DNA of 64,000 nucleotides from Thamnaconus septentrionalis (lineage: Eukaryota; Chordata; Actinopteri; Tetraodontiformes; Monacanthidae). Below are positions 3,202 through 43,600 of the stretch, piece by piece. The stretch covers positions 5,294,501-5,358,500 of the forward strand of contig CM020503.1 in NCBI GenBank assembly GCA_009823395.1, written 5' to 3'. The notes under the pieces were generated by a model that was not told the DNA's origin, made no database searches, and saw only the letters and a list, made by a program, of their open reading frames with translations. Each line of letters starts with the position of its first letter. Within the stretch, counting starts at the first letter, position 1. The position numbers and the translations under genes are program-made.

Positions 3202-4055
3202 GGCGTGGATGGGAGGGCACACGAGCACACGCACGGTGGAGGCCAGCTGGCGCTAATCCCGCACGCTCACCCTCCCTGACGCTCCGTAAAACCCCGGCGC
3301 GAGTCTTTCAGAGCGCCAGTGTGATGTACGGCAGCGCGTGTGAGCAGATGTTGCCTCCGGTCGGGCCGGCCGCACACCACCTTTAACCTACTTTGGCTCA
3401 CCACCGCTGGATAAAATAATGGCGCGATGCGTAGCCTGCGATCTGGAGCGGGATTCTGATGACACAGTTTGGCTCGGAGCCAAAGGAACCAGCGGATCGT
3501 CGGGGTGGAGGGAAAGCCAACGAATAAAAACCAACCAAAACATAACAGGTTGTGATGCAGCAGGTGAAAGGTCACGCGCATTGTCAGGGACACACATGTG
3601 TGAAAAGCGCAGCGCTGTGTGACAGTGAGGTGACACTGGAGCTGGCAAGGAAAGGAGCGAGACAGACACATTCAGGTTGGAGTGCGCTGGTGGTGATGAT
3701 GATGATGGTGTTGGTGATGATTGTGGTGATGATGATGATGTTGGTGGTGGTAATGATGATGATGATAGTGATGATGATGATGGTGGTGATGATGTGGTGG
3801 TGGTGATGATGATGATGATGATGATGAAGATGATAGTGATGATGAAGATGATGATGATGGTGATGATTGTGGTGATGATGATGATGTTGGTGGTGGTAAT
3901 GATGATGATGATAGTGATGATGATGATGGTGGTGATGATGATGGTGGTGATGGTGATGATGATAATGATGATGATGATGAAGATGATAGTGATGATGAAG
4001 ATGATGATGATGGTGATGATTGTGGTGATGATGATGATGTTGGTGGTGGTGATGA

Positions 4056-4089
<34 letters not shown>

Positions 4090-4193
4090 GGTGACTATGA
4101 CAATGATGGTGATGATAATGATGATGATGATGGTGGTGATGATGATGGTGGTGGTGATGATGATGGTGGTGGTGATGATGATGATGGTGGTGG

Positions 4194-4230
<37 letters not shown>

Positions 4231-5271
4231 GATGACAGTGATGATGAAGATGATGATGATAGTGATGGTAATGATTGTGGTGATGATGATGAGGATGAGA
4301 ATGATGGTGATGATAATGATGGTGATGATGATGATGGTGGTGGTGGTGATGATGATGGTGGTGGTGGTGGTAGTGGTGACGATGATAATGATGGCGGTGG
4401 TGACGATGATAATAGTGGTGGTGATGATGATGATGAGGATGAGAATGATGGTGATGATAATAATGATGATGATGATGATGACGATGCAGCGGAAGATGCT
4501 GAGTGTTGCTTTTCATTGTGAACTTGATGCATTCACTCTGCTGCCACTATACTGACGTCTTTCCTGTCTGTGCCGGTCGGTCAACTTCCCCACAAAAGTC
4601 AACATCACACTTCTTTTGTTAGCTCCACTTTTAAGAAATTTCTCTGAGAATTTATTATGAAAACACACAAGAGGAACATCTCGTCTCAACCAGTTAACTT
4701 CCTTTCAAATGGACATTTCTGCCATCAGCCAGTATTAATGCCCCCTGATGTTGCGTGAGAAGAGGGATTTGGGGATCTAATGGGGTTTCTGGCTTTAAAC
4801 TGGTCCTGGGGTCACAAGGAGAGGTTGATGCTGCTGCTGCTGCTGCACTGATTACACTGGTTAATCTGCACTTTTTTGGGGGGAGACCCCCTGCTATGAG
4901 TGCATTTGTGCTGGATTTTGACTGCATAGGAGGTGGTCTGCAAACTATGTCCTCCTTATATCACACATCTGCTCAGCATCAGCTCTGTGTCAACATGGGC
5001 TTCAGTGAACACAGTCCGAGGGGCTTCCACACTCGTGTTCTGCCGGCCAAAGTAACTGTGATCTGATGATCTGATGGGCCTGGGGGGTGAATTGGACGGA
5101 TGCTGTTTCTTCTGGCATCCTCTCTGGATGGTAGACTTTCACAGAGAGAGCGCACTCCAAGAAGCCTCCTAATCCACCACTGCAAAGGGTCTTCCAGGTT
5201 CAAACGGAAGGGAGGCGGCTGCAGGACTGAACACTCTGATTGTTTTTGTGCTGCCGAACATCCATCCATCC

Positions 5272-33125: not shown

Positions 33126-34114
33126 TCACACCAGCAGTCTCTCAATAGCCAGCTGGACCGACTGGATCTGCGGTTTGAGCTGAGAGCCCTCCTTTATGGT
33201 GACCGAGGTAGCGATGACGGGACGCGACACTCCACAGGCACGTCCCAGCGCCTGCTTGGAGCGGACAAACACGTACGGCACATTCTTGTCCTCACAGAGG
33301 AGAGGCAGATGGAGGATGATCTCCAGTGGTTCAGCATCAGCTGCCATCACAATAAATTCAGCAATGCCTCTGTTCAGGGTTTTAGTGGCTGGAAGATAAG
33401 ATCACAATAACGACAATGTATTCAGAATCATCAGTCCATCATCAATAAAGTTTATCTAATTTGACAATTTAATTTGAACATGGGATTACAACTTGAAGAT
33501 ATGACAAATAAAATAGCTTATTTTTAATAGTGGATTTTGGAATGGCCCATTGTGATATTTACAGCGCATTAGCAGACAGATGTTACAATTTCACTTTGAG
33601 TCATGATTTACAACTACAACTATATCCAATCTACATGTACTCCATACATCTTGCCCACAGTCTCTGGGTCAAATGACTTAGCATGCCTCAAAGCACACAT
33701 GGGGCCAGCCTCAGTGAAAGCTGCTCCAACACATCTGGAGAACAAGCAAACCACCGGCTTGCGTGTTTCGCCTCGAGTAACACATCAGTACCGGCCAATG
33801 TCTATATTTTCAATCCGTACCTTCATTTGCCCCCTTCCTTAGTTGTTTGTAGTTGGAAGCCTGCTGCACCAGGTCCAGGATGGTCTTGGTCAGCGTGGCG
33901 TCGGCCAGTGGGTAGGCCTTTGGATTCACCTGAGGATCAGTCTGTCGAAAGAACATTAAATACACGTTTATTCGTAAGATGTAAGCAGAATAAGGCAGGA
34001 CTATACCCGGCAGCGAAGCTGGGTGATTTAAATTTCACTCTTGCTGTCTTGTTTCGTTGGGTCGCTAACAGTTAGCCGTGCCGCTAGCTAATGCAGGCTT
34101 CAAACACTCACCAT
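33126..34114 (-). CDS. snu13: SNU13 / NHP2L1 (15.5K) K-turn RNA-binding protein, complete
   Basis: SNU13 is an L7Ae-family protein that binds kink-turns in U4 snRNA (tri-snRNP) and box C/D snoRNAs, nucleating spliceosome and rRNA-modification particles in the nucleus. Exons on the minus strand are 34114..34112 (the ATG alone, followed by gtgagt), 33941..33821 and 33388..33126, giving 128 residues, the exact family length. The product reads [91 protein letters not shown] and ends ERLLV. Compared with human, TEAD is TDPQ, GISEF is GIAEF, and Cys is Thr in VIATS. Such near-identity is normal for this protein. It is divergent (head-to-head) from uqcrc2. A vertebrate paralogue suffix (a/b) cannot be assigned. 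Confidence 0.96.
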
Positions 34115-34767: not shown

Positions 34768-37700
34768 ATGAAGGGGATTCGGGGAATCAGTCAGCTTTCG
34801 GTAAGGAATTAGCCAACAAGTCACTCATATTCACGAGTCGGAAGAAGCGTTTCTGTAGTAGGCGTTCGTTAAAAATATAAAAGAGTGCCGGAAGGTCAAG
34901 TGTCAAGCGTATCTAGATACGATGCTGTGAAAAGCTAACAAGGAAGCAGTCAGCTGAGACTAGTCGGATCATACAAACCAGCAACGTTGCATAACATTGA
35001 CAGATAAACACAGACTGGCGCTCTGGACGGTTCTGCTATCTGTACATTTATATAAACACATTACAGACAGCATATACTCAACCTTACTGTATGACACTAA
35101 ACGATCAAGCGACCGTTAGCTTGAAGACTAGGCTTAGCATCTTTCCCTCATAACTGACGATGGCTTGAGCTAAACCACTACCTGTGATAATATCAAAGTT
35201 ATAAAGCAATCGTAAGATCTATTAAAAATATATAACACGACAATGATGAGGAAATGCTTGCAGAAGTGATTGTCAAACTTCCACGTAGTAGTGTATTCAA
35301 GTAATTTGTCAAATAATGATAATTAGCAGATGGAGCTGACATTACTATATTATACTGTTGTTTGGATTTCTTCTATGTAAGAATAATTTAATTGTAAGAG
35401 CAAACCAATCACTTATCTATAATGTGTTACCACGTGATATCCTCTCTTCAAACATCCCCTCACCCAAGACAACTACAGAAAAACACATTACTTGTAATAT
35501 CCCGGCTTCCCGTGTTTTCTATTTTTCCAGACAAGACTTTACGCGGCGCAGGCAGCCCGTAAGGTGGAATTCACTGGGGCCGCCGAGCGTGTAAAGTTTC
35601 AGCCCCAGGATGTGCAGGTCAGTGTCGGTTGACGTGTCTTTCTCCTCCACAGAGACGCTTCTATGCGGCTGCCAGAGCAGGCCAGTCCCTTGCACAGCCC
35701 CTGGCTGGTCTGAGTCTCTCTCCGCGTGCTGCCCACTCCTTCCAGGACGTCCATGTATGTTTGGAAGTGATGAGGATGGTGGTGCCGGGGGTTGACGGAC
35801 AATAAATGAATCTGCATCTTCTTTGAATTTCAATTTTACCCATCAGACATTTGGACCTTCCAGTGTTATTTTTTTAAAATATTGTATTGATGTTCCATCT
35901 TTTTCTAATAATCTATTTTGCTGGATACCTTGGTGATGATAAAACTGTTTTTGTGTGTGTGTCCTCAGGTGTCCAAACTGCCAAGTGGACTGGTGATTGC
36001 CTCCTTGGAGAACCACTCCCCTTCCTCCAAGATCGGAGTGTTTGTCAATGCTGGCTGCCGTTATGAGACCCCAGACAATCAGGGGGTCACTCATCTCCTC
36101 CGCCTGGCCTCCAGCCTGGTATGATGCTCAGGAGTGGCCTTAACCTTTTAGTTGTCGCAAAAAATGAAACGTGACTCAGTCTCTTTACCTCTTATTTTTC
36201 AAGACTACCAAAGGAGCTTCTGCTTTCAAGATTTGCCGTGGTGTTGAGGCCGTGGGAGGCAGCCTGAGGTCAGTCAGTTAGAACTAATAATGTTAACTGC
36301 ATTGTTTGGAAGCGGCTTGCCACTTAACTTAATATTGAACCTGCATTTTTTGACTTTTGATCACTTCTTGAGCATTTTATTTTTTAATAAAATGTGAAAC
36401 ATCAGGGTTATGTGCTGTTGTCTAAATAAGTAGAACAATTTGGCTCTGTGAGGTTCTCAAGAACAGTTTCTGCATAAATTAAAAACAAGAAACAGACGGC
36501 CACAGCATTCTTTTTCTGCAATACGTCCAGTTTTTGTTAAAGGCATCTGTAGGATCCATTTTGTAGGAAATGAAATCATCACAGAAGACTGCACTGGATC
36601 TAACTTTTCTTAATGTACTACTCAGGCTTCCTGTGTGGATGATTTTGTGTTTTTCTCCACAGTGTGACTTCAACTAGAGAGAACATGATCTACACAGTTG
36701 ACTGCCTGAGAGATGACATGTAAGTTGTGCAGAAATCGTTGTGCAGAAAGAAGAACCTTTGATGAAGGGAATGCTTGTACTGTACTTGTGTGGAATAGTG
36801 GCAAATTCTCATCCACTCACGTTTCTCTCCTTTCTCCTCATCTGGTTTGACGGCAGTGATACAGTGATGGAGTATTTGATCAACGTGACAACGGCTCAGG
36901 AGTTCCGGCCGTGGGAGGTGACCGACCTCACCGCCCGAGTGAAGCTGGACAAGGCTGAGGCTGCCAGTAACACTCAGATAGGTGGGCTTCTGTTCTTCCA
37001 TTCAGTTGTCATGCTCTCTCTGTATCTACTGCAAAAGATTTCAAATGTTGCAAGACTCGTCAATAAACTGTACAGTTGTTTATAATGCAATTACAAGCCT
37101 CTTATTACCAGCTACATGCTAATTAGCCTGAACAGCCGCAGTTATGAGAGCAGACATCTCTTTAAGCCCAGGGTTGTGTGTGTCCTCTGCAGGTGTGGTT
37201 GAAGGTCTGCATTACGCTGCATACAAGAACACCCTCTGCAACTCTCTGTACTGTCCCGACCACATGGTTGGCAACATCGAGTCCGATCATGTAGGTGATT
37301 CTCCAGCCGTCAAAACTGATCTTGCTGTTGGACACGTTGTTTTTAATGAATTGTTTTTGCATTTTTTTCCTCCTGCAGCTACACCACTTTGTACAGAACA
37401 ATTTTACAAGTGCAAGAATGGCACTGGTCGGACTTGGTATGAAAACATTTGTTACTCTTTAGTATACAATGGCATTAGGGCTGTGCGATTAATTGATTTT
37501 AATACCTTTGAAGACCCAACATGTAACAGTTGTAGTTGCTCACTGAAATGAGTCAAGTGAGTCCATTTGGACGAGTCAAGGGCTCAAGTCCTGTGCGAGA
37601 GAGTTTCTAAATATAACTCTGTATTAAGTCGTCATTTTCTATTCAGGTGTGGACCACGCTGTGCTGAAGCAAGTTGGGGAGCAATTCCTCAACATCCGCA

Positions 37701-39074
37701 GCGGCTCAGGTGCCACTGGGGCCAAGGCTCAGTATCGTGGAGGTGAGCTCAGCTGGCGCAAAAAAAATAACAACTTCATATTAATCTCACACCACTTGAA
37801 TATTTGCTGTTTTTACTTGCTTCCTCCCATTTCCCCTCATGCTTGCTCTGCCTCCCTCCAGGTGAGATTCGTCTGGCCAGCACCAGCGGCTTGGTCCACT
37901 CAGCAGTGGTGGCCGAGTCTGCAGCTGCAGGCTCCAGTGAAGCTCTGGCCTTCAGCGTCCTGCAGCAGCTACTGGGAGCCGGCCCGCACGTCAAGAGGGG
38001 CTCGTGTGCCACCAGCAAACTGGTGCAAGGTGTGGCCAAGGCAACAGCCGAACCGTTCGACGTGAGTGCGCAAAGAGTCGCTGTCTCGTCTGTGGTATGT
38101 ACAATCCAAATAGCCTCAAGGCCTTTGAATTTCTTTTTTTCTTTTTTCCTGACCAGGTCAGCGCTTTCAGTACAGGCTACTCTGACTCTGGTCTGTTTGG
38201 AGTCTACTCCATCTCCCAAGCTGCAGTTGTTGGTGATGTAAGTGTCCTACGGCCATAACAAAAAGCTATTCAACATTCAGTTCTTTGACTGTAGTGCTGC
38301 GAGCAAGTGAGGAGCCCTGACGTATTCTGTCCTTTCCAGGTGATTAAGGCCGCGGTTGCCCAGATCAAAGCTGTTGCTGATGGCGGAGTCACAGCCGCTG
38401 ACCTCAGCCGAGCCAAGTAAGACAAACATTTCTTTCAGTGTTAAATCTTCCTTGACATTTTGTCAAATATTACCATTTAACATACATATTTTACCTGCCT
38501 GACACTTCTGATTTTCTTCATCATAAAATCAATTAGAGCAAAAAAAGAAAAAACAAAATAGCATAGGGAAAATCTGGAGAAAAACTAAATGCCAGTCAGT
38601 CCAGTTCAACCCCTTTCATGTCTTATGTTAACATTTGGTGTCAAAATGTTTCTCTCCTCCTGCTTTGCTGCCCTCTGGTGCATAAGTAACTCATCTTTGT
38701 GTTTTGTTCTGCAGGGCCCAGCTGCAGGGCCAGTTCCTGATGTCTCTGGAGACTTCAGAGGGTTTGTTGGAGGAAATGGGCACTCAGGCTCTGGTCACCG
38801 GATCTTACTGCCCGTCAGCGGAAATCTCCAAAAAGATTGACAACGTGTCCTTGACCGATGTCAGCAACGTAAGTCATTCATTTCTTTTCACTGTCACTTT
38901 GGTGTGGGATAGTCAAAAATGAGTTGCTAAATGTTAAAAAGATCTATTTTTTTTGTGATGTAACCGATGTTTTCTCATGTTAATTTGCAGGCGGCCAAGA
39001 AATTTGTGTCTGGCAAGAAAACAATGGCTTCCAGCGGAAACCTTAAAAAGATGCCCTTTGTGGATGAGATCTAA
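34768..39074 (+). CDS. uqcrc2: Ubiquinol-cytochrome c reductase core protein 2 (complex III), with alternative exon 2
   Basis: UQCRC2 is a non-catalytic MPP-like M16 subunit of mitochondrial complex III, on the matrix side. Exons: 34768..34800, 35531..35617 (2a) or 35653..35754 (2b), 35969..36118, 36204..36268, 36663..36719, 36857..36981, 37193..37290, 37379..37436, 37647..37742, 37862..38061, 38157..38237, 38340..38416, 38715..38868 and 38991..39074. With 2a the protein has 454 residues (human 453); with 2b, 459. Recognisable blocks: [178 protein letters not shown] and the C-terminal FVDEI. The start is the first ATG and matches the family. Head-to-head with snu13, tandem with mosmo. Confidence 0.96.
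35531..35617 (+). CDS. uqcrc2: uqcrc2 exon 2a (canonical N-terminal exon)
   Basis: This 87-nt, phase 0-0 exon starts [14 protein letters not shown] and ends QPQDVQ. It aligns with the human segment SRFYSLKVAPKV through QPQDLEFTKLP, so it is the ancestral form. It is preceded by tatttttccag and followed by the donor GTCAGT. Confidence 0.88.
35653..35754 (+). CDS. uqcrc2: uqcrc2 exon 2b (alternative tandem-duplicated exon)
   Basis: This 102-nt, phase 0-0 exon begins [16 protein letters not shown] and ends SFQDVH. It has a strong acceptor (ctttctcctccacag) and a GTATGT donor. Its ends match those of exon 2a (R-L/F-Y-A-A and Q-D-V), so it looks like a diverged duplicate, although the middle differs. 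It is 35 nt from exon 2a, too close to be joined to it. Reading through those 35 nt meets an in-frame TGA five codons after exon 2a. Use in vivo is inferred, not shown. Confidence 0.72.
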
Positions 39075-39329: not shown

Positions 39330-40645
39330 TTTTGTTGGTTGTGAGCTTTCAAGTTTTTTTCATTGCAAAAAGATAAATAATTCTTATTAAGATCAACGTG
39401 TTTCCTTTTTGGAGTTTTGATGTTAAGTTTAAATAATGGAGGGCTGTGCATAATGACACAATTGCAATAGTAAAGGTCCCATACACTGCTTAATTCACGA
39501 CAGCATTTTCCAACAACTTGTCTATAGCCTGTTGAGAAAAAGGGCCATCAATTTTTGGCTAATGCAACGTTTCAAAGAGTGTATTTAATTAGCCCTTTGT
39601 TTTTGTCATTAAGTGCACAGATAACCTCTCCCGGGTTAAGGATGTAATTGTTGTGGGCCCTTTCTTGTCATGTAAGGGAAGCAGAAATAAATATTTTTGC
39701 TGACGTGCAAACGGAGGGCTCAATATGCTGTGATGGAATATGGAAATAATTCATCTAAAAACGCTTATATTGGACATTTAAAGTGCTGCCCGCCTTAAGC
39801 CCTCAAAGTTCTTCCATCTGCTGACGAGGGTGAGTGTGAGGAAGTTAAAACCGACAAAGTCTCCCTTAAATTGAGATCTATGTGGCCAGAAAGTGGAACT
39901 TTATCGTGTCGTCGGTTTGTTGACGCATTCCGGCGGCAGTCACTTCATCCTCGGCGGCGCGTTGATGCGAAAGTATCGGGAGTGTCGTCTGTTTACGTGT
40001 GTTCTCGCGAGAGTTGCCCACTATAAACATGGAGATATGAGCAGTCAAGGCTCCAAGTGCAGGAGAAAGCAGCCTTCTTCTCGGGATAAACACTAAACGC
40101 GTAAATCTCTCGTCTGTCGGGTGTTTCCTTTTAAAAAAAAAGAAAATCGAGCTGAGCCTTTTGCTCGCTCCGGAGCTTGTCGGGGTTTTAAATCTTGGGG
40201 AGAAGCGTTTCGGGACGCGATCATGGGCGGCGCTTGTGTTCCGTGTCACTCCGAAGAGAAGAGAAACCCGTAGCATGGGAAGTAGAGAGAACGCCTGATC
40301 CCTGGCATCCTTGGCAAAATAAGTTCGCTGCATGCAAGATTTATTTATTTTTTGTTGCCTCGCTGACGCGGAAAGTGTCTTGGTGAGAATGCACAGCGTG
40401 CTAACATCACCGGGATGGTGAGGAGCCCGTGAGTCCCCCCGGACCGGAGGAGGGATCGCCGAGCTGGTCCTGCATGATGAAGAAGTGGTGAGAAGAAGCG
40501 AGAGAAAGAAGTGACAGCTGCCTCTGCTGGGCTCGACCGCGATGTACTCCGCCCTGCGGGCGCCGGCTCGGGTGACGGGACGGCAGGAAGGGGCATAGGT
40601 CAGCGCCCTGGAGCCGCAGAAGCCCGCCACCTGTGCGCACCCGAC
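39330..40645 (+). promoter_or_regulatory. uqcrc2-mosmo spacer, mosmo promoter and GC-rich 5'UTR
   Basis: The first half is AT-rich and empty. From about 39,890 the sequence becomes CpG-rich (ggcggcgcgttgatgcg, gggacgcgatcatgggcggc, gaccgcgatgtactccgccc) up to the mosmo start, fitting a CpG-island promoter and long 5'UTR. The 250-residue antisense frame across it is a by-product of CpG richness. An upstream ATG (40511, frame continuing through mosmo) exists, but the conserved start is at 40646. Confidence 0.5.
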
Positions 40646-43600
40646 ATGGATAAACTCACCGTCATATCAGGATGCCTCTTCCTCGCCGCGGACATCTTCG
40701 CCATCGCCAGCATCGCCAACCCGGACTGGATCAGCACCGGAGACTCAGCCGGTACGTTTCTGGTCGATTGGGATACAACTTTGCATGTCTTGAGGTGTGG
40801 AAGGAGAGAGAGAGAGGGGGGGGCGGTTCATTTGTTAAATTCTTACCTGTCACCCTGCTGGTTTGCATGCACTCAGTGTGTTTAGGAAGGCGAAAGACAT
40901 TTCAAATAGACACATAGATGTATATAATTAATCATACATACATACATACATACATACATACATACATACATACATACATACATACATACACACATACACA
41001 GTGTTGTTGGGATTACTCCATAAAAGTAGTTCAACTACTGATTACTGATTACACCTTTAAAAAGTAATCTAATTACTTCTTTAACTACTTTGTTTCACAA
41101 GTAATCAATTACTAATTACTTTAGTTAAAACAATTGAGTACAACAAACCACAATATTCTTTGATTTCGACGAGATGAACTCAAAATGTTTGTATTTCCAG
41201 CTATCAAACGCAGTTGCTGTTTTTTCCGCCATGCTTGTTTTGGTGCGTCATCACACGTCATCGTTGCATGCACAGCTGCAACATTGTTTTCAGTTGTTTT
41301 TCTAAATTTCAAACATTTTGTGGAAGACATTTTTAGATTGCAGAAAATTTCAGAAAAGTAACTTGATAAAGTAATTATGATATAATTACCAGTTTTGCCA
41401 CAGTAATCCAGTTACATTACTCCGTTACTAAAAAGTGTACAAGTGTACAACACTGTACATACATGCATACATGATTTTTAAAGTCATCTGACTCTGATTT
41501 CCATGTGGATAAACACAATATTTGCACAAAAAAATCAGTCACTGAAGCGCCAGAGTTGTTGTGTCTGCAGCGATGGCCCTTGCATTCGTACCTAAACTTT
41601 CCAAGAGCCAGTGCCAGGTCCTCAATTGATGAATGAGAGGTAAAGGCGTCGACAAAATAAAATTACTGCTGAGCACTTGAGCTGAAATTTAAGTGCACTG
41701 AAGAAACTCCGTGCTTGTAGTGTTAACACTGCAGGATGTTATATTTTATCTTTGGCAAGTTCCCAGACTAACTCCAACGTTAACTGTTACCCCCCCTTAC
41801 TTTTTTTCCATTTGGAAGTAAAACTCCAACTGATGCTGACTCACGAGTTATCACCCAAGGCATTTCATCTGATTCAGGCTTTATGTAACACTTGCTTCTG
41901 TATTGTGTACAGAACCTCCACCCTCTTCCCCCCAAGCAATTTTGAGTACTCACATTTTTTTTCTTAATTCTTATGTCAGAGAGCTGCCACTGTAACTCCA
42001 TCCTGATCAAGAGATAACAGCAGTGAGGGGAAATGTTCATTATGAGGCCTTGAGAGCGAGCCAATCATACAGGCAGTTTCAATGTGTCAGCACTAATCAC
42101 ACATATCGTATGTTGATGTTTCCTGTGGAAAAACATGGATGGCCGTTTCACTCCCTGAGCTGGCATTCTGCTGCTGCTGCTCTCACCCGCTCGGCTGAGG
42201 TCACTCTGCAGGAGTGTCTCCCAGCAGGGCGGGGGTCTGCAGGCGGTCTGTTGTGCAACATTTCTGCACACTTTCCTGGTGTGTTTTTAAGAAACGGACA
42301 GTGTCAAACATTCCACCTACTGACAAACTTTCAAGCGAGCGTGTGTTTGGCGCTGTTTTGAAGATTTCTACCAGTCTAAAAGTGAAAGTGTTGATTAATT
42401 GCCGCTGCATGATGCACAGACTTGACCTCCCATATGAGGTCTATTTATATAAGAAATGCCAGAGTCCGAAAGCTAAACTCAAACGGATGCAAGACAAACC
42501 ACTCGATGTAGACGGCTGCCTCAGGCTCTTGACAGCTTCTGTCTTTGTGCCAGACTGGAGGAGAGATAAGCACATGGCAGGAGTTCAGTGTGAGTATTAC
42601 AAGATTTGATCATGCAACCCCGCCAAAAAAAACAGTTGCTGCTACAGGTTTAGCTTTTATTTCTCAGTTTCAACGCTTGCGTGGAATGGCTTCACTAATG
42701 GCCTTTAATTAACTGGAAAGGAATTACATGGAGGCCGGAAGTGTTGTTTGTTCATAAGGATGTGTGACTTTTAATTGGGCCCCCAGTGAGAAGAATGTTT
42801 CCTACCTGGAGAATTAAAAGTCCCTCATGGTCACACCTGACGCACTTCATTTTTGACCAGACGGCCTAAACTGAGGGATACACGATGTTGTCCACAGCAG
42901 GGGACACTGATAGATGAGAAGATAAAATAGATCATATAAAAGAGGCCAGTAAGTGCTTTAAAAAAAATAACAAATTACAACATAGAAAGCAAAGAGAAGT
43001 TAAATATGTTGTTTTGTGTATTTAGCCCCACCCTCCCCCTTACGCCCCCAAAAAATACAGAAGTGGTAAAAAAGTTGTTGGATAAATTACACAATATCAA
43101 ATAGCAAGATATGCAGGAAATATTTGCAGGAAACCTTTTTGCATTTTAGTTCAATGTTGCTGCATCAAACAGTCAAACAAATGCATTTTTGTTTTGTGTT
43201 CTTAAAATAAAAGAAAGTCTTGCTTGGGTGCTGAAACACCCAGGATGCATGTGGGTTGTGGGTGACAAATGTGGCGTGTAATTAAATGACTGGGTTGTCT
43301 GAATGCTTTTTCCACCACTGTAAAGCATCACTGTCTAATCCATTTATTATCCAGTTATGAAAAAAATACATAGAGACAGCACCTGTCAAACCTTGTGTTT
43401 CTGACAGTTTGGAACAACCTATGCAAAGTATGAAAAAACCCCACTAAATCTATTCAAGTGCCCCATAAAACCCCAGTTACACCACAGCAGTATAGCAGCA
43501 TAGTGGCACAAACAGCATGGAGAGGAGAGAGCAGCAGGCAGAGTGTTGCTCCAGGCTTTTACAGTCCTTGTTGCTGAAAACTGGAGGTGCTGCAAGTCAT

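Follow-up and report, generated by a model that had tools for sequence, protein, structure and literature searches.

Two candidate mutually exclusive second exons in the uqcrc2 gene of the fish Thamnaconus septentrionalis

Introduction

The Core subunits of respiratory complex III are usually regarded as invariant structural parts. A stretch of 64,000 nucleotides of Thamnaconus septentrionalis DNA (assembly GCA_009823395.1, contig CM020503.1, positions 5,294,501 to 5,358,500 of the forward strand; hereafter the window) raises the question of whether one of them, Core protein 2, is made in two forms in this fish, as its gene appears to contain two adjacent versions of exon 2, here named 2a and 2b. 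A first-pass annotation of the window had proposed that the pair is mutually exclusive and is kept apart sterically. The present analysis favors the reading that 2a and 2b are genuine mutually exclusive exons by steric exclusion in fish uqcrc2, to which a probability of about 0.85 is assigned; steric exclusion, the use of both exons, and a function of the exchanged tail are what we infer from the sequence.

The uqcrc2 Gene and Its Surroundings

The gene occupies positions 34768-39074 of the window (+ strand), and its product is Core protein 2 of complex III. The best match in the PDB was 3cwb_B (E 2.7e-180, query residues 19-454), presumably the chicken chain, whose deposited name is Core protein 2, and both M16 domains (PF00675 and PF05193) were detected with Pfam; the identification as UQCRC2 is based on this full-length match and the two domains. 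Exons 1-14 were rebuilt, with 2a and 2b counted as alternatives for exon 2. The coding part of exon 1 (34768..34800, +) specifies 11 residues, which make up most of the mitochondrial presequence, and ends at a gtaagg donor with a score of 8.0. It is followed by exon 2a (35531..35617, +; 87 nt, 29 residues), a spacer (35618..35652, +), and exon 2b (35653..35754, +; 102 nt, 34 residues), an alternative exon for the N-terminal tail. Exon 3 (35969..36118, +; VSKLPSG...) is the common acceptor exon and the start of the conserved Core 2 body, while exons 4-14 extend to the stop codon (36204..39074, +) with introns of 88-394 nt among them.

Both 2a and 2b are phase 0-0, and each connects exon 1 to exon 3 in frame, so that the path 1-2a-3 yields an open frame of 454 aa and the path 1-2b-3 one of 459 aa, both of which are complete proteins. 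Recomputed splice scores and open frames thus bear out the first-pass annotation with regard to the coordinates, phases, and splice sites of the two exons and to its claim that either can join exon 1 to exon 3. A search of 35400-35900 as DNA against the same genome returned the region itself as the sole match, and a scan of viral contigs detected no relative.

Several other features were observed in the window. Head to head with uqcrc2 lies an exon at about 33821-33945 (-), of which 36 residues were read and which we take to be SNU13/NHP2L1; this SNU13/NHP2L1-like gene and uqcrc2 probably share the promoter region between them. An open frame at 40511-40885 (+) contains MDKLTVISGCLFLAADIFAIASIANPDWIS and presumably represents MOSMO (human C16orf52), a neighbor of human UQCRC2; no Pfam match was found for this frame. 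In addition, a long low-complexity tract at 3584-4555 translates into runs of His from one strand and runs of Met from the other.

Splice Sites and Composition of the Two Exons

With an approximate vertebrate splice-site matrix, not trained on fish, the acceptors of 2a and 2b scored 13.2 and 12.3 and ranked first and fourth among the 14 of the gene, and their donors scored 8.6 and 6.7 and ranked tied third and tenth among 14. The splice sites of both exons are of constitutive grade. Their GC contents (0.60 for 2a and 0.64 for 2b, versus 0.38 and 0.36 in the flanking introns) are also exon-like. No third alternative exon was found in 34801-35969 when segments of 30-400 nt were considered at relaxed scores, the in-phase open segments being 2a, a shortened version of 2a of 33 nt, and 2b. 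A further acceptor-like site (score 8.8) is present within exon 2b at 35746 (+) and is in phase by distance, which would give a 9-nt micro-exon encoding DVH. A role of 2b as a poison exon was ruled out, as it contains no stop codon.

The Spacer and the Predicted Mechanism of Exclusion

The spacer measures 35 nt, versus 85-730 nt for the other introns on the 2a path, and holds the 2a donor, the motif TTGAC (A at 35632), a pyrimidine tract, and the 2b acceptor. It is predicted that exon 1 is spliced to either 2a or 2b and that whichever exon is used is then spliced to exon 3, with the 35-nt spacer being too short for removal as an intron. Within these 35 nt, U1 bound at the 2a donor would be forced to overlap with U2/U2AF bound at the branch site and tract of 2b, so that the two would compete and recognition of one exon would block the other. 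Retention of the spacer causes a frameshift and a TGA; the gap length and the in-frame TGA are as given by the first-pass annotation. A transcript with 2a joined to 2b would stay in frame, with no stop codon in the stretch that was read, and the frame is also kept when both exons are skipped; as joined exons would be translatable, the spacer itself, and not decay of the transcript, would have to keep the two apart.

The motif TTGAC is the sole yUnAy match in the spacer, and its A, intron nucleotide 15, is separated from the 2a donor by approximately 14 nt and from the end of the spacer by 20 nt. A donor-to-branch threshold of ~50 nt has been used for mutually exclusive exons, according to the available text of two reports (PMC7969005; PMC5740500), and this candidate branch site lies inside it. 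Exon 2a itself contains two more yUnAy matches, with their A at 35541 and 35573, which might act as branch sites for 2b in place of A35632, while none was found upstream of 2a in 35460-35528; hence, the branch sites given here are guesses, and the branch point proposed earlier holds as the only match in the spacer but has competitors inside exon 2a. Splicing has also been reported for short human introns (43, 49, and 56 nt; PMC4463651), and that of the 43- and 49-nt introns implies that the ~50-nt limit is not absolute. The proposal of alpha-tropomyosin-type exclusion is thus upheld in its sequence elements, namely two exons, an apparently unspliceable spacer, and a candidate branch site inside the limit.

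With regard to regulation, the RNA fold of 35531-35780 was no better than that of shuffled sequences (z -0.17; 82/200 shuffles as good), and RNA structure was rejected as the switch. The Rbfox word GCATG is absent from 34801-35968; short words of PTB-like, CELF-like, and other types do occur but may reflect chance.

Predicted Consequences for the Protein

Residue 4 of 1be3_B (439 aa), a chain that presumably begins at the mature end of Core 2, aligned to query residue 19. If the chain does start at the mature end, cleavage of the presequence would, by this offset, fall behind R-L-Y at four residues into exon 2, so that exon 2 would supply the last 4 residues of the presequence. Both exons retain a cleavage site for the presequence as well as the QDV junction, and the swap affects the mature N-terminal tail. 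The two products would have the cleavage site and the folded body in common and would differ only in the last presequence residues and the tail. The tail comprises 25 residues from 2a and 30 from 2b with a net charge of +1 in both, and that of 2b has 2 His, 4 Ser, no Lys, and no Glu. Exon 3 begins at query residue 41 of isoform a, and the Pfam M16 match of isoform b begins at residue 55.

The N-terminal tail of mature Core 2 faces the matrix. Among the 23 highest-scoring Core 2 structure chains (taken from the best 60 of 85 matches), 11 are without most of the exon 2 tail, with the first aligned query residue at 35-37 and the chain start at query 30-37, and the other 12 comprise 5 that start at the mature N-terminus and 7 that are longer and precursor-like. 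Since depositors often omit residues that are not seen, the mostly tail-less chains suggest that the tail is probably flexible. As for its function, the tail would probably tune import and processing or a matrix contact of complex III.

Neither the 2a nor the 2b peptide alone matched any solved structure at E up to 10. In four MPP-alpha chains (8bep_A, 8e73_B, 7jrg_B, and 8zno_A), the alignment of isoform b reached deeper into the N-terminal portion than that of isoform a, with a gain of about 2 to 5 bits, which faintly hints that 2b might be the older tail. An extension of the match to MPP-alpha tails by 2b was considered and rejected as too weak (8bep_A, 236.1 bits for b versus 231.4 for a; E 1.1 with the short query), and two other Alpha-MPP chains reverse the order (9g9t_E, 169.1 for b versus 170.5 for a; 9fq7_3B, 146.8 versus 148).

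Likeness and Origin of the Two Exons

Exons 2a and 2b start alike (RLY|AA in one and RFY|AA in the other) and end alike (Q-D-V-Q/H, before the V-S-K-L-P of exon 3). Their peptides have a global alignment score of 16, which was reached by 7 of 20,000 shuffles. The 264 kb contain 8609 open AG-GT segments with lengths of 75-120 nt, and five of these reached the score: exon 2a in three different readings, 2b, and a single unrelated segment. Judged by these alignments, the likeness is real but short. The ends are alike, as had been described, while the middles gave no convincing alignment; since a possible origin by duplication is read only from the ends, which sit at functional sites (presequence cleavage and the junction to the body), the middles cannot be called homologous. 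When ten pairs of end codons were compared, the residue was kept in seven, and five of these seven differed silently, a pattern expected if both exons are under selection at the protein level.

Two other accounts of 2b must be weighed here. In the first, 2b arose by independent exonization of intron sequence and converged on 2a at the cleavage site and the junction, in which case the pair would still be either-or without 2b being a duplicate of 2a. Such an origin would fit the shortness of the likeness, which covers a few initial residues and the last three, both functional sites, and a DNA identity of 11/18 nt at the start and 9/12 nt at the end. However, both ends match at equal distances from the splice sites, which duplication accounts for in fewer steps, and the two end motifs occur together in only 2a and 2b among the 8609 segments (the motifs having been picked after the exons were seen). 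Independent exonization is accordingly regarded as unlikely.

In the second account, 2a is used in nearly all transcripts, and 2b is a rare exon or a functionless duplicated relic that has not yet decayed. The resemblance of 2a to other Core 2 sequences accords with this view: the tail of 9cg3_K, which we take to be the human chain, aligned globally to 2a with a score of 50 (reached by 0 of 5000 shuffles) and to 2b with a score of 12 (5/5000), so that 2a is, on these alignments, the form more like mammal Core 2. The middle of 2b does not resemble 2a, which points the same way. On the other hand, the splice sites of 2b are still strong, its frame is open, its GC content is that of an exon, and both the cleavage and junction motifs are retained, and the silent changes at five of the seven kept end codons suggest that more has been retained than would be expected of a relic that old. 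This second account is thus considered improbable, more so than independent exonization.

Frequency of Comparable Segments by Chance

The frequency of exon-like segments was estimated by scanning for open phase 0-0 segments of 60-200 nt, with the splice scores of 2b itself as thresholds, in the window and in a control of twenty 10-kb stretches (200 kb) of the same genome, both strands, which together make 264 kb. In the window, the + strand yielded three segments, namely 2a, 2b, and exon 11, while the - strand yielded none, and the control gave one segment on its two strands, which, judged by eye, reads like an exon of protein disulfide isomerase. None of the four matches in 264 kb resembles a false exon, three being uqcrc2 exons and one disulfide-isomerase-like. 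It is extremely improbable that 2b is an open run lying between splice-like sites by chance, for although one unrelated segment among the 8609 equals its alignment score to 2a, no unexplained stretch in 264 kb reaches the same splice thresholds and no other segment carries both motifs. The exon architecture, open frames, splice-site strength, spacer length, and shared end motifs are, taken together, far beyond chance.

Relation to Known Exon Pairs and to Previous Reports

The mechanism proposed here is known from other genes, and the uqcrc2 pair, as adjacent exons of the same phase that each join the same neighbors in frame, is very probably a further member of that class, for which no report in uqcrc2 was found among open-licence PMC papers. 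For the mutually exclusive exons of alpha-tropomyosin (TPM1), exclusion was reportedly proven by Smith and Nadal-Ginard in 1989. In both genes, the alternative exons lie next to each other, and a branch site, in uqcrc2 a candidate one, is so near the upstream donor that splicing of one exon to the other would be prevented. In alpha-tropomyosin, however, the spacer is an intron of greater length whose branch point is remote from the acceptor, whereas the uqcrc2 spacer has 35 nt in all, its candidate branch site lies at an ordinary distance from the acceptor, and exclusion is predicted from these features.

Exons 4a and 4b of OGDH, also a mitochondrial energy enzyme, are mutually exclusive, and their branch points fall under the donor threshold of ~50 nt; the intron measures 118-131 nt in birds and mammals, and the human branch points lie 25-41 nt from the donor (PMC7969005). 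The OGDH switch gains a calcium-binding motif (PMC7969005), while that of uqcrc2 would exchange an N-terminal tail. Tandem duplicated exon substitution events (PMC9741552) and mutually exclusive clusters (PMC5740500) of human genes, as presented in the accessible sections of both papers, belong to the same class as the uqcrc2 pair, and N- and C-terminal regions are enriched in them (PMC9741552, PMC5740500). Potential steric interference was reported for 57 (9%) human mutually exclusive clusters (PMC5740500).

Searches by gene name among open-licence PMC papers brought up no account of a second version of exon 2 in uqcrc2. This agrees with the first-pass annotation, which knew of no described exon switch in the gene, except that two splicing studies name the gene without giving the event in their available text. 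In one, which compares winner (W0) with loser (L0) brains of Betta splendens, uqcrc2b, a possible ortholog of the Thamnaconus gene, is named as differentially spliced, with the event type not stated in that text (PMC9150285); in the other, on chicken, UQCRC2 is named among oxidative-phosphorylation genes in the discussion (PMC8678468). In rainbowfish, expression of uqcrc2b was higher at raised temperature, and the words 'splic' and 'isoform' are absent from the main text of that paper as available (PMC4831457). Likewise, 'uqcrc' is absent from the available main text of a stickleback paper (PMC12159805) and from those of PMC9741552 and PMC5740500.

Possible Implications for Complex III in Fishes

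It is a more tentative suggestion, held at somewhat less than even odds, that fishes select the N-terminal tail of Core 2 through a regulated switch between the two exons and that this choice affects complex III. The 35-nt spacer offers a clean natural test of how closely two splice sites can lie and still compete without being joined, because transcripts that include both exons would keep the frame and would not be lost to decay. If the suggestion is true, the tail would alter the processing of the presequence or a contact that complex III makes on its matrix side, and it would shift with tissue or metabolic state, and uqcrc2 would join OGDH as a respiratory-metabolism gene tuned by a sterically forced exon pair. 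A switchable tail of this kind would give a simple nuclear handle on complex III.
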